From Thermoplasmatales archaeon (GTDB lineage Archaea > Thermoplasmatota > E2 > DHVEG-1), in assembly GCA_020350825.1 (NCBI GenBank), contig CP070724.1:1675169-1739168 (forward strand): a DNA stretch of 64,000 bases, in the 5' to 3' direction. The notes below the pieces were generated by a model. It had not been told where the DNA came from, did no database searches, and saw only the letters and a program-made list of their open reading frames with translations. A program made the translations under genes and the position numbers. Position 1 is the stretch's first letter. Each line of letters opens with the position of its first letter. This document shows positions 45,187 to 50,109 of this stretch, in pieces.

Positions 45187-45396
45187 ATGACTGAAAAAAA
45201 AATTACGGAAGATATGACTATACAAGAGGTAATAGAAAAGTATCCCGAAACAATGATGGTGTTCTCTAAATATAACATCGGCTGTGTCGGTTGTCTTGCA
45301 GCCTCTTTTGAAAGAGTTAAAGATATCGCTGGCGTTCATGGCACTGATATTAAAGCCCTGGTAAAAGATTTAAACGATGCAGTACAAAACAAATAA
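45187..45396 (+). CDS. DUF1858 domain protein (redox-disulfide type)
   Basis: A 69-residue protein. TIQEVIEKYPETMMVFSKYNIGCVGCLAASFE matches the DUF1858 pattern (short form: EKYPET, then CVGC near residue 33). The CxxC pair implies a redox or metal role. Family members occur next to hybrid-cluster or Fe-S proteins. ATG 45187 was chosen for GGTGAA just upstream. The longer frame from 45076 lacks homology. It converges on nikR with a 2-base gap. Confidence 0.8.
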   Translation: MTEKKITEDMTIQEVIEKYPETMMVFSKYNIGCVGCLAASFERVKDIAGVHGTDIKALVKDLNDAVQNK

Positions 45397-45398
45397 AA

Positions 45399-45809
45399 TT
45401 ATATTTGACTCTCTGTAATTACCAACTCTCCATGTTTTATTCCTTTTAATGATTTGATTTTGTCTGCTAGTTTTTTTATATTATCATTTTTTCCTTTTAA
45501 AACGAGGACTTCAAGGCAATTGTGATGATCAATATGAATATGTGTCGTGGAGAGGATTTCATTTGTATGGTCATGCTGCATATCCAAGAGCCTATTTGTA
45601 AGGTTTCCAGTATGGTGATCATATATCATTGTTAACGTGCCTATCGATACTAAATTAGGGTCTTTGTTTTTTTCTATTATGAGATTTTTTCGTATGATGT
45701 CTCTTATGGCCTCAGAGCGGTTTGTATAACCTTTTTTCCGAATGACTTTGTCAAATTTTTTTAATAAACCAGGTTCAATTGAAACTCCAAATCTCATAAT
45801 ATTTTCCAT
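45399..45809 (-). CDS. nikR: Nickel-responsive regulator NikR
   Basis: A 136-residue ribbon-helix-helix/ACT regulator. The DNA-binding domain is MRFGVSIEPGLLKKFD followed by NRSEAIRDIIR. The C-terminal ACT domain carries the high-affinity nickel ligands His79, His90, His92 and Cys98 (THIHIDHHNCLE), with exactly the 11-2-6 spacing of E. coli NikR. With nickel bound it should repress transport genes. ATG 45809 gives MENIMRFGVS, which matches family N termini. An ATTTTATATT-like box lies at 45841-45850. Divergent from a metal ABC transporter, with a palindrome between them. Confidence 0.95.
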   Translation of the reverse strand: MENIMRFGVSIEPGLLKKFDKVIRKKGYTNRSEAIRDIIRKNLIIEKNKDPNLVSIGTLTMIYDHHTGNLTNRLLDMQHDHTNEILSTTHIHIDHHNCLEVLVLKGKNDNIKKLADKIKSLKGIKHGELVITESQI

Positions 45810-45854
45810 AGTAACACGTTTTACAGATAATCGTAGCACGAATATAAAATTTTT

Positions 45855-45880
45855 GTTACCATAAAGTTTATTATGATAAC
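45855..45880. promoter_or_regulatory. Probable NikR operator between nikR and the metal transporter operon
   Basis: GTTACCATAA, a six-base spacer AGTTTA, then TTATGATAAC: a 26-base inverted repeat with 9 of 10 base pairs matching. It is the only strong palindrome between the divergent genes, sits upstream of the nikR TATA box and overlaps a TTTATTATG box that could serve the transporter. The long, short-spaced half-sites suit a NikR tetramer. Confidence 0.65.
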
Positions 45881-45935
45881 TTTGTTTGTAGGTGTTGCAA
45901 AATTTAGAAAATTATAACAAAAGGGGGTTGACAAC

Positions 45936-46913
45936 ATGAAAAACATGAACAGAAGTATACTATATTTTTTAATTATATTGTTGGTTATATCCTCCTTTAC
46001 ATTACAAATACAGGCTGAAGAAAATCATATAAACATTTTATGTACAAATTCAATCCTTGCTGATTTCACATCAAATCTAATTACTGAAAATGTTACAGTA
46101 GATTACATTATGCCCGCTGGAGTATGTCCTGTGTTTTATGATACAACTCCAAGTGATATAAATAAAATTGTTACGGCTGATATTATAATATCATTAGGAT
46201 CAGCAAAACAAGAACCGTGGTTATCCGATCTGTTGGTACACAACTCCGATTATATATTAATTGAATGCAAAGATCTGGGGGAGTGGAATTTTCCAAGAGG
46301 GGCAAAAACGTATTTAGGATTTTTAAAAAATGAGCTCTCTAAAAATTTACCTTATAATAATAAAACAATTATTTCAAATGCAGAGATTTACATTAATAAA
46401 ATAGATGAAAAAGCTCAAGAACTCTTTGACATGATTAATGACAGTGGGTACCAAAATATAAAAGTTATATGCATGGAATGGCAACAGGATTTTCTTGAAT
46501 GGCTTGAATTAAATGTTACCTATTCCCATGGTCCTCCACAAGGGCTTTCTGTACAAGATGAGCTTGAGGTTATTAATACAACCTCGTCTGGAGATGTATA
46601 TGTTGTTGTAGATAATCTTCAAAGTGGAACAGACTTTGGAGCTAGCGTTGCATCTGGATCGGGAATTTCTCATGTAATTTTCACTAATTTTCCAAGGGCA
46701 ATACCTGGAACTGATACATATCTCGATATGATTACTTATAACACTAAGCAACTCATAGAAGGTATTGAAACTTATACCCACCAACAGGGGAGAATTTCCG
46801 AATTACAAAGTCAAATATCTGATTTAGAACTTCAAAGAAATACTTCAATTATTTTCACAATTGTCTTTATTATACTTGTAGTTATTTTACTGATTTTGTA
46901 TAAGAAAAAATAA
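45936..46913 (+). CDS. Metal ABC transporter substrate-binding protein (TroA/ZnuA-like), C-terminally anchored
   Basis: A 325-residue exported protein. After the signal peptide (to about residue 27), it follows the two-lobed TroA fold: CTNSILADFTSNL, then MPAGVCPVFYDTTPSD near 60, where TroA/ZnuA proteins have a metal-binding PHxYE/D. Here Cys-Pro replaces the Pro-His. A helical linker and one C-terminal membrane helix (about 303-320, basic end) tether it, in place of a lipobox. Its cargo is probably Ni2+, because NikR, HypA and the HypB-like gene adjoin. GGGGGTT is the ribosome binding site. Confidence 0.75.
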   Translation: MKNMNRSILYFLIILLVISSFTLQIQAEENHINILCTNSILADFTSNLITENVTVDYIMPAGVCPVFYDTTPSDINKIVTADIIISLGSAKQEPWLSDLLVHNSDYILIECKDLGEWNFPRGAKTYLGFLKNELSKNLPYNNKTIISNAEIYINKIDEKAQELFDMINDSGYQNIKVICMEWQQDFLEWLELNVTYSHGPPQGLSVQDELEVINTTSSGDVYVVVDNLQSGTDFGASVASGSGISHVIFTNFPRAIPGTDTYLDMITYNTKQLIEGIETYTHQQGRISELQSQISDLELQRNTSIIFTIVFIILVVILLILYKKK

Positions 46914-46924
46914 TGGTGATTTAA

Positions 46925-47329
46925 TTGTCTGAAGAATTAAAAAAAATTGAGGAATTTCATGGGCATCTTGGGCCTTATGTCGTTGTTGGATACAGGATGG
47001 GAAAGATTGCAAATGAAAAACTCGGCTCAGATCCATTCACAAAAAAGGCAGTTGTCTGGACTGGAATAAAACCTCCTGTATCATGTATGATAGACGGCAT
47101 TCAGATGGGATCCGGTTGTACTATTGGTAAAGGTAACCTTGAAGTAAAAAATAAATGTATTCCTAAGGTAACGTTTTCAAACGATTCTGGGAAAAATATA
47201 GAGATAATTTTGAAAGAAATCATTAGAAATGAAATTGATGAAACTGTAACTGATGATAACATAGTTTGTTACTCAGAAAAGCTTTTTAAAAAAACTGATC
47301 AAGAACTTTTTGAAATAAAACGAGTATAA
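46925..47329 (+). CDS. FmdE family protein
   Basis: A 134-residue FmdE-domain protein. EEFHGHLGPYVVVGYRMG near residue 7 and IDGIQMGSGCTIGKGNLEV near 57 are the two hallmark segments. FmdE was named in molybdenum formylmethanofuran dehydrogenase clusters, but most homologues, including those without the zinc ribbon as here, have unknown metal-linked roles. It begins with TTG. Placed between the binding protein and ATPase genes, with gaps of 11 and 2 bases, it is probably part of the nickel system, perhaps as an accessory binding protein. Confidence 0.8.
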   Translation: MSEELKKIEEFHGHLGPYVVVGYRMGKIANEKLGSDPFTKKAVVWTGIKPPVSCMIDGIQMGSGCTIGKGNLEVKNKCIPKVTFSNDSGKNIEIILKEIIRNEIDETVTDDNIVCYSEKLFKKTDQELFEIKRV

Positions 47330-47331
47330 AA

Positions 47332-48087
47332 ATGATTGAAAACTCAAATGTTATTGAATTAAAAAACATTGAAACGTTCTATGAAGGGGAAAAAATACCA
47401 GTAATTCATGATATTACTTTCAACATTAAAAACGGAGAATTTGTTTCAATTATAGGCCCAAATGGCGCAGGTAAAACAACTCTTCTTGAAACTATCAACG
47501 GACTTCTCCATTATACGGAAGGAAAAGGTTACGTTTTTGGAATGGAAATTTTAAAAAATAAAACCGAAATAAGAAAAGAAATAGGGTATGTTATTCAGAA
47601 TTTCGAAATAGATCCACTATCTCCTTTTTTATGTAAAGATATAGTTCTGTCAGGTAGAACTGGGAAAATCGGAGCCTTTAAATTTACAAGCAAAAAAGAC
47701 TGGGATAAAGTCTGGTACAGCATGGGTCTTGTGGGAATGATTGATTTTGCAAATAGATCTGTTGGAAAGCTTTCAGGCGGAGAGTTTCAAAAAATATTAA
47801 TTGCACGTGCTCTTGCTCAAGAACCAAAGCTTTTGCTCCTAGATGAACCTTTTTCAAATCTTGATTTCGCTGCTAGAAAACAGATTGAAACACTTCTTAA
47901 TAGAATACATGAAAAACAAGTTATAACTATTGTGATGGTTTCTCATGATCTATCATTTGTTCCAAATAGATGTAATAGAGTAATTGTTTTAGACCGTGGA
48001 AGAATAATAATGGATGGAAAGAAACAGGATATTTTAAAATCTGAAATGATTCATAAGATATTCAATGGGAATGGGAAAAAGAAATGA
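47332..48087 (+). CDS. Metal ABC transporter ATP-binding protein (ZnuC-like)
   Basis: A 251-residue ABC ATPase. Walker A GPNGAGKTTLLE is near residue 43, the signature LSGGEFQK near 146, Walker B LLLLDEPFSNLDF near 165 and the switch histidine in MVSHDLSF near 204. All are intact. It energises import with the permease that begins four bases before its stop. The sequence belongs to the manganese/zinc/iron chelate branch. The substrate is inferred from its operon. Confidence 0.9.
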   Translation: MIENSNVIELKNIETFYEGEKIPVIHDITFNIKNGEFVSIIGPNGAGKTTLLETINGLLHYTEGKGYVFGMEILKNKTEIRKEIGYVIQNFEIDPLSPFLCKDIVLSGRTGKIGAFKFTSKKDWDKVWYSMGLVGMIDFANRSVGKLSGGEFQKILIARALAQEPKLLLLDEPFSNLDFAARKQIETLLNRIHEKQVITIVMVSHDLSFVPNRCNRVIVLDRGRIIMDGKKQDILKSEMIHKIFNGNGKKK

Positions 48088-48935
48088 TCGAGTTTCCTCT
48101 TTCTCTATTAACTGTTTCAATCCTTGGTGCAGTTCTAGCTGGTTTTGCATGTTCTACAATGGGAACATTTGTTGTAAGATTGAATCTTGCCTCTATCGGT
48201 TATCTGATGTCTCATGCAGCGTTTGCTGGCGCTGCATTTGGACTTATGATATCTATTGATCCAATGATCGGTGCAGTTATTTTCTCATTTGGAACTGCAA
48301 TTATTTTAGGTCCACTAGCTGAAAAAGCTCGACTTCAAAGCAACGTCGTTATTGGTTTTTTGTTTTCTTTTATGATTGCCCTAGCTTTTATTTTTTTAAA
48401 CTATATCCCAGGTCAAGCTGCAAGCGGAACAGCGTTACGCATCCTTTGGGGTAGTATTTTTTCTGTTAGTAACAATGATCTACTTTTTTTACTTCTCCTT
48501 TCGTTTATATTGATAATTTTTATAGTTGTTTTCTATAAGGAGTTATTAGCGGTAATGTTTAACAGAAAACTCGCAGAATCATCAGGTGTTAACACTAAAT
48601 TATTTTACTTTGCTGTACTCTTTTTCACTGGTTTTGCTGTCTCTTTGTCTCTTCAGTTAGTTGGCGGTCTTCTTGTTTTTGCTCTTATTATCAATCCAAC
48701 ATCAACCGCTTATCAATTTTTATATGATTTCAAAAAAATAGTTATTTTCTCACCTATAATTGGTATTGTTAGTTGCCTAGTTGGATTTTTTTTATCTCTT
48801 TTAACTGATTTTCCAATTGGGGCATCAATTGTCGTTATATCCGCCGCTGTGTTCGTCTTTGCAATTGTTGTCTCACCTAAACGCAGAAAAGGCAATAGCA
48901 AAAAACAGAAATTGAGTATTATTAGTAAAATTTAA
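48084..48935 (+). CDS. Metal ABC transporter permease (ZnuB-like)
   Basis: A 283-residue permease with eight or nine membrane helices. The N-terminal LLTVSILGAVLAGFACSTMGTFVVRLN and the coupling-helix region SGVNTKLFYFAVLFFTGFAVSLSLQLVGG (in part) correspond to the ABC-3 family. The ATG overlaps the ATPase stop (ATGA). With the anchored TroA-like protein it forms a complete importer. A 28-base gap separates it from hypA. Confidence 0.9.
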   Translation: MIEFPLSLLTVSILGAVLAGFACSTMGTFVVRLNLASIGYLMSHAAFAGAAFGLMISIDPMIGAVIFSFGTAIILGPLAEKARLQSNVVIGFLFSFMIALAFIFLNYIPGQAASGTALRILWGSIFSVSNNDLLFLLLLSFILIIFIVVFYKELLAVMFNRKLAESSGVNTKLFYFAVLFFTGFAVSLSLQLVGGLLVFALIINPTSTAYQFLYDFKKIVIFSPIIGIVSCLVGFFLSLLTDFPIGASIVVISAAVFVFAIVVSPKRRKGNSKKQKLSIISKI

Positions 48936-48963
48936 ACCATACTGTCTTCTATCGGAGCTTCAT

Positions 48964-49377
48964 ATGCATGAGTGGGCATTAGCTGAATCAATACTTTCAA
49001 CAACACTCGAAGAAGCAGAAAAAGAAAAACTAAAAACAATTGATGAAATCAAAATAGGTATAGGTGAGTTACAACAAATTGAACGGGATATTTTTGAGTT
49101 TGCTCTTGAAGAAATCATTAAATCCAAAGACAACAAGTTGAAAAATGTAAAAATTAGCATTGAAACAGAAAAAAGCACATTGAAATGCAAAAGCTGTGAA
49201 CATACCTGGAAGTTTAGTGATATGAAGAAGAAACTTAATGAAGATGAATCTGAAGCTATTCACTTTATTCCCGAGGTTGCTTTTGTTCATACAAGGTGTC
49301 CAAAATGTGGAAGTCCAGATTTTGAGATTACAACTGGAAGAGGTGTTTCAATAATATCAATCAAAGGAAAAAGGTAG
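48964..49377 (+). CDS. hypA: [NiFe]-hydrogenase maturation nickel metallochaperone HypA
   Basis: A 137-residue HypA. It begins MHEWALAESIL, with the His2 and Glu3 needed for nickel binding. The zinc domain has CKSC near residue 75 and CPKC near 119, separated by the longer insert typical of archaeal HypA. It hands Ni2+ to hydrogenase large subunits together with HypB. GGAG lies just upstream. The next gene starts 6 bases after its stop. Confidence 0.95.
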   Translation: MHEWALAESILSTTLEEAEKEKLKTIDEIKIGIGELQQIERDIFEFALEEIIKSKDNKLKNVKISIETEKSTLKCKSCEHTWKFSDMKKKLNEDESEAIHFIPEVAFVHTRCPKCGSPDFEITTGRGVSIISIKGKR

Positions 49378-49383
49378 TGAATC

Positions 49384-50109
49384 ATGGAAGCTAGGGTCAG
49401 TATAATAAAGAAACGATTGAGGAGCATTAAAAGAATTATTTCTGTAGCAAGTGGGAAGGGTGGTGTTGGTAAAAGTCTTGTTGCTTCTACTTTAGCATTG
49501 AATCTTGCAGAAAAGGGGCATAAAGTGGGACTGCTGGATCTTGATTTATATGGCCCTTCTTCACACATTATATTAGGAGTGAAAGATGTTTTTCCAGGGG
49601 AAAAGAAAGGTATTGTTCCTCCAAAGATTCACGGTATAGAGTTTATGTCAATTATCTACTTCACAGAGGATAAACCTTCTGCATTTAGAGGTATTGATAT
49701 CACAAATATAATTATTGAACTCCTTGCTATTACTCAATGGGGTCCCTTGGATTATCTAATTATTGATATGCCCCCTGGCATAGGAGATGAAACACTAGAC
49801 GTTATTAGATTCATCAAAAAGAGTGAATTTCTCGTTGTTACAACACCTTCAAAGGTTGCTATTAGTGCAATTTGCAAACTTCTCAAAATCCTAAGAGAAT
49901 TGAAAATTCCTGTCATTGGATTATTAGAAAACATGAAGATGGCCGAGTCATCGATTATTGAAGATACAGTTGCTGAAATAGGTGTACCCTTTATTGGTAG
50001 CATATTCTTTGATAAAAATCTTGAAGATGCAATAGGGATTGGTGATCTTCTATTAAAAACAAAGTTTATGGAAGAGCTAGACGATAATTTAAAGAAAATA
50101 AATCTCTAA
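49384..50109 (+). CDS. Mrp/MinD-type ATPase, probable HypB functional counterpart
   Basis: A 241-residue P-loop ATPase. The deviant Walker A SGKGGVGKSLVAS lies near residue 23, and DMPPGIGDETLDVI near 129 is the Mrp/NBP35 signature. It lacks the C-terminal CxxC of Fe-S scaffold members. In Thermococcus kodakarensis an Mrp/MinD-type ATPase encoded beside hypA serves as HypB and forms a nickel-acquisition complex with HypA. The same adjacency here suggests the same role. An Fe-S carrier of the Mrp type is the alternative. Confidence 0.8.
   Translation: MEARVSIIKKRLRSIKRIISVASGKGGVGKSLVASTLALNLAEKGHKVGLLDLDLYGPSSHIILGVKDVFPGEKKGIVPPKIHGIEFMSIIYFTEDKPSAFRGIDITNIIIELLAITQWGPLDYLIIDMPPGIGDETLDVIRFIKKSEFLVVTTPSKVAISAICKLLKILRELKIPVIGLLENMKMAESSIIEDTVAEIGVPFIGSIFFDKNLEDAIGIGDLLLKTKFMEELDDNLKKINL

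Follow-up and report, generated by a model that had tools for sequence, protein, structure and literature searches.

Seven genes were annotated by using Pfam and NCBIfam profiles at positions 45399 to 50109 of the window (the whole stretch of 64,000 nucleotides that was analyzed), which belongs to a genome consisting of a single 2.32 Mb contig whose nearest named relatives are Thermoplasmatota metagenome-assembled genomes. The gene nikR, on the minus strand, is divergent from a six-gene operon in which the order is binding protein, FmdE, ATPase, permease, hypA and hypB, with neighboring genes separated by 2–28 bp or overlapping by 4 bp. All seven genes were placed as the original prediction had described, with unambiguous domain assignments, and the gene calls bore out the position of FmdE between the binding protein and the ATPase. 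The features are as follows.

45399..45809, minus strand: nikR, nickel-responsive regulator (in the ORF list it extends to 45839, from a GTG; the ATG at 45809 is the likelier start)
45833..45859: predicted NikR operator, GTAGCA-N15-TGTTAC, separating nikR from the six-gene operon
45936..46913, plus strand: TroA/ZnuA-fold binding protein with a putatively Cys-lined cleft and a C-terminal membrane helix (ZnuA, Pfam, 8.5e-22)
46925..47329, plus strand: FmdE single-domain protein, H12, H14 and C54 kept (FmdE, Pfam, 2e-22; fold match to 2gvi and 2glz)
47332..48087, plus strand: ABC ATPase (ABC_tran, 8.9e-31)
48084..48935, plus strand: ABC-3 family permease (ABC-3, 2.5e-51; triad reads Tyr-His-Asn)
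48964..49377, plus strand: HypA nickel chaperone (HypA, 3.4e-25; NF003008, 6.9e-52; 3a43, 3e-32)
49384..50109, plus strand: HypB-type ATPase of the Mrp/MinD kind (3vx3, 2.7e-74)

A small DUF1858 protein (hybrid-cluster-protein-associated redox disulfide; 45187-45396) lies tail to tail with nikR in most relatives, and a nickel or redox link for this neighbor is possible.

NikR contains both a ribbon-helix-helix DNA-binding domain and NikR_C (Pfam, 8.6e-32). Gap-free alignment to solved NikR proteins, with the ligand stretch aligned to that of 2bj1 (3.9e-40), recovered the four predicted nickel ligands (His/His/His/Cys) at the correct spacing. Given that the listed GTG start falls within the operator and that the family model NF003381 (NCBIfam, 9.2e-54) begins at residue 11, ATG 45809 was taken as the likely start. 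The operator is a 27-bp palindrome that fits the motif without mismatch, and the genome holds only two such exact matches (the window site and one other). Its general form, GTARCA-N15/17-TGYTAC with at most one mismatch, was found in 26/41 nikR upstream regions compared with 0.39 expected from shuffled sequences, a count that takes in related genomes and hence does not represent 26 independent cases. Loci at which other nickel genes lie opposite nikR (L087, L088, L091, L092, L093 and L100) carry the same palindrome. Its form corresponds to the 'reversed' NikR signal described in Desulfotalea psychrophila, GTAACAC-N13-GTGTTAC, a close variant of which lies upstream of nikK in Desulfovibrio vulgaris (PMC545781). 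The predicted site, an inverted repeat of the 27-28 bp kind that characterizes NikR operators, lies beside the genes that it would regulate. Another palindromic sequence within the window, GTTACCATAA-N6-TTATGATAAC, was set aside, as it did not rank with the best palindromes of the relatives.

At the distal end of the operon, HypA (best solved relative 3a43) has retained its two CxxC pairs, the N-terminal MHE motif and a counterpart of Thermococcus His98. HypB is an NUBPL/Mrp-type ATPase (Pfam, 8.5e-59) with a Walker A motif and, as had been proposed, is of the Mrp/MinD kind, since its closest solved relative is Thermococcus HypB (3vx3) and its gene adjoins hypA. The two proteins are closely related to the Thermococcus pair (3a43, 3vx3, 5aun) and likewise encoded side by side; unlike that pair, they are co-located with an importer under one predicted NikR operator. 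The large subunits of two [NiFe]-hydrogenases are encoded in the genome, each with its two CxxC pairs (CGVC/CFGC in one, CGIC/CMSC in the other), near genes that resemble, by eye, a maturation protease, HypF and HypE. A search of the genome that covered the nickel importer families CbiM/NikM and NicO, and not NikABCDE, whose family overlaps peptide importers, returned no match.

The binding protein has a TroA-type fold, with matches to MntC, ZnuA and PsaA, and it carries a C-terminal membrane helix and no lipobox, in agreement with the original prediction. Solved binding proteins of cluster A-I bind their metal through four ligands, His67, His139, Glu205 and Asp280 (PsaA numbering). When the protein was aligned by profile with 5hx7, a Mn-binding protein of solved structure, the first position fell on Val66, where relatives have Ala, Ser or Thr, and the second in a segment that is deleted ahead of W117; the third fell on residue 181, which varies (Q, E, G, A, I or T), and the fourth on N251, which is invariant. 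All four canonical ligands are thus lost or unconserved in the family. The proposal that Cys-Pro directly replaces the ligand His did not hold, as C64 sits two residues before the ligand-His position. Conserved instead are four Cys residues (C36 in 18/18 sequences, C64 in 19/19, C111 in 17/19 and C179 in 15/19), together with W117 (18/19) and W182, D226, N227, Q229 and N251 (19/19 each). C36, C111 and C179 map to core-strand termini or to positions next to them and C64 to the loop that follows strand 2, and from this secondary structure and the profile alignment we infer that all four face the cleft. The exact ligands of the Cys-lined pocket that would replace the His/His/Glu/Asp site are among the most speculative parts of the reading. 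Since the canonical ligands are absent or unconserved, the protein was filed as a variant and not as a zinc or manganese importer.

The permease of the window differs as well: by motif comparison, the Asp47-His51-Asp94 triad of manganese importers is replaced by Tyr-His-Asn; L106 and other outgroups have Asp where the window permease has Asn. This leaves only one of the three charged lining residues in place in the window, which would suit a less charged cargo, and the binding protein family has lost the classical ligands while gaining Trp, Asn, Gln and Asp, as expected if its pocket recognized a complex. Together with the invariance of W182, D226, N227, Q229 and N251, these features make import of an organic nickel chelate, in place of the bare ion, conceivable but not the favored reading. 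Against it, the core clade shows no variation at C36 or C64, as direct ligation of a metal would predict, clefts in TroA-type proteins are small, and no chelator synthesis genes were seen in the operon.

A permease tree contained too many long branches to be used, and relationships were read from the binding protein. The core NikR/FmdE-linked binding proteins formed a clade of their own (support 99/99); they did not cluster with zinc or manganese transporters regulated by Zur or MntR, the outcome that had been named as counting against the nickel assignment. This notwithstanding, the wider group of Cys-Pro proteins (100/98) includes one MntR-linked transporter, at L106 (652-5444), where the binding protein gene lies beside two MntR-type regulators and a ZIP transporter. 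From these neighbors, the wider branch probably also includes manganese importers. Cys-Pro, to which the original prediction had drawn attention, was therefore rejected as a marker for nickel; C36 and W182 are better markers of the NikR/FmdE clade. NikR-like regulators were also observed next to canonical His-type ZnuA/TroA importers at L029 (636-3902) and L130 (4399-7588), the former encoding a binding protein with a His-rich loop, and no FmdE gene was found beside either of these importers.

In order to determine how widely the module is distributed, relatives were surveyed within the phylum Thermoplasmatota, where many genomes are incomplete; a single-sequence search of genome contigs reached only two close relatives, and a plasmid search with the binding protein as query gave no match. 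The core clade was present in 20 genomes. The full arrangement, in which nikR points away from the six genes in the order given above, recurs across genera of the family, which argues against a chance arrangement, and the FmdE-containing core extends to further families within the class and phylum (L103, L104, L128 and L129). nikR adjoins the module in 17/20 clade genomes and is absent near it at L023 and L129, while L109 ends with its contig and could not be judged; the L023 genome carries nikR elsewhere, with hypA-hypB (L096). In some module genomes hypA and hypB are lost or moved, and the genes at L026 are ordered differently and are followed by a NifH/ParA-type ATPase in place of hypAB.

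In relatives without the module, the slot beside DUF1858 and nikR is occupied by other nickel genes. At L089 and L092 it holds NikMLQO (CbiM/NikM, NikL, CbiQ and ATPase), and at L087 and others it holds the nickel-pincer genes larC-larB-larE (all three confirmed by NCBIfam at L087), mostly accompanied by one or two small membrane proteins. That a single locus can hold either the module or a known nickel importer is the strongest indication of what the module transports. Genome-wide exclusion between the module and CbiM is not claimed, given that CbiM occurred in 0/18 genomes with the module and 6/61 without (p = 0.33). Because the genomes are related, the genome counts given here are not independent.

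These observations also bear on whether the importer carries some other metal (zinc, copper or cobalt) and merely shares a locus with nickel genes. The annotation of the family as zinc/manganese, the suitability of Cys-rich sites for Zn or Cu(I) and the MntR-linked Cys-Pro relative would all fit such a reading, and the absence of hypAB from some module loci, and of nikR from the vicinity of two, are further points against nickel. We nevertheless consider another metal very unlikely, since the predicted NikR operator faces the transporter gene itself, hypA-hypB lie within the same operon, known nickel importers replace the module in relatives, and the genome yielded no CbiM or NicO importer. 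The original assignment of the importer to nickel was upheld by the predicted operator, the exchange with NikMLQO and lar genes, hypAB in the operon and the two [NiFe]-hydrogenases. On this sequence evidence, nickel is with high confidence the importer's substrate, and the case for regulation and nickel assignment is strong.

FmdE was assigned by both its family profile and its core fold, with a predicted model (pLDDT 92) that matches 2gvi and 2glz, and it is single copy in this genome. In a check of co-occurrence that the original prediction had called for, FmdE was found in 18/18 module genomes compared with 5/61 others (23/79 genomes of the class; Fisher p = 1.2e-13, which relatedness inflates). 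The mixed Zn/Ni site of 2glz consists of His15, His17, Cys19 and Cys55 (PMC2954224), of which the window protein keeps three as H12, H14 and C54, with Gly16 at the Cys19 position. Relative to the PF02663 structures (2glz, 2gvi and 3d00) it thus has the same fold and the His, His and Cys of the metal site; unlike them, it reads FHGHxG in place of FHGHxC, has no zinc finger and is steadily linked to NikR and HypAB. A 2010 paper remarked that most genes of the family adjoin metal-transporter genes (PMC2954224), so that a link to transport was already known; a link to NikR or HypAB was not found in the literature searched, which excluded most subscription journals. At L104 (7738-8826), the gene immediately after that of the module permease encodes a fusion of a TrmO domain with an FmdE domain.

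Instead of carrying nickel, FmdE might assist the transporter structurally or through redox chemistry, for instance by keeping a Cys route reduced. The family has a core akin to the thioredoxin fold and no proven function (PMC2954224), C54 and C65 are invariant, and the fourth metal ligand is Gly in the window protein. This role is tentative, given that the window protein matches 2glz at three of its four Zn/Ni ligands and that the family so often neighbors metal transporters.

Returning to nickel, NikR-controlled acquisition and delivery to hydrogenases is very likely to be the explanation of the operon as a whole. When nickel is sufficient, Ni-NikR would bind 45833-45859 and, as the motif suggests, repress both nikR and the six genes opposite; under nickel shortage these six genes would be expressed. 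The binding protein, anchored by its helix outside the membrane, would capture nickel in a Cys-lined TroA-type cleft and hand it to the ABC-3 permease and ATPase for ATP-driven passage. In the most speculative, though plausible, step, cytosolic FmdE may take or buffer the nickel via His12, His14 and Cys54 and pass it to HypA/HypB, which would load the two [NiFe]-hydrogenases. A stricter version, in which FmdE docks on the permease and takes the emerging nickel so that it is never free before HypA/HypB, and in which the binding protein has a new Cys-based site in the TroA fold, is rather doubtful.

Judged by its sequence features, the module is very probably a new type of nickel importer inside cluster A-I. 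With ZnuABC, MntABC/PsaABC and TroABC it shares the binding-protein fold, the ABC-3 permease and the ATPase, whereas its canonical His/His/Glu/Asp ligands are absent or unconserved in a presumably Cys-lined cleft, its anchor is a membrane helix instead of a lipobox, FmdE lies inside the operon and the regulator is NikR instead of Zur or MntR. It is linked to NikR like NikMNQO/NikMLQO (ECF), but the transporter class is unrelated. A 2009 survey listed only three nickel/cobalt importer families in archaea (PMC2667541); if the assignment is correct, this would be a fourth, from a zinc/manganese branch now annotated as zinc uptake. FmdE would gain a concrete, testable job, and the binding protein would be a natural case of a TroA fold in which a Cys-lined site has taken over from a His/Asp site.

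Other candidates were observed in relatives without the module. At L088 (4988-5612), nikR faces one or two small membrane proteins (~97-117 aa) without a Pfam match, and similar proteins, often followed by larC-larB-larE, were found at L084, L085, L087, L090, L091, L093, L094, L095, L100, L102 and L115. They are candidates for an unrecognized nickel transporter or sensor.
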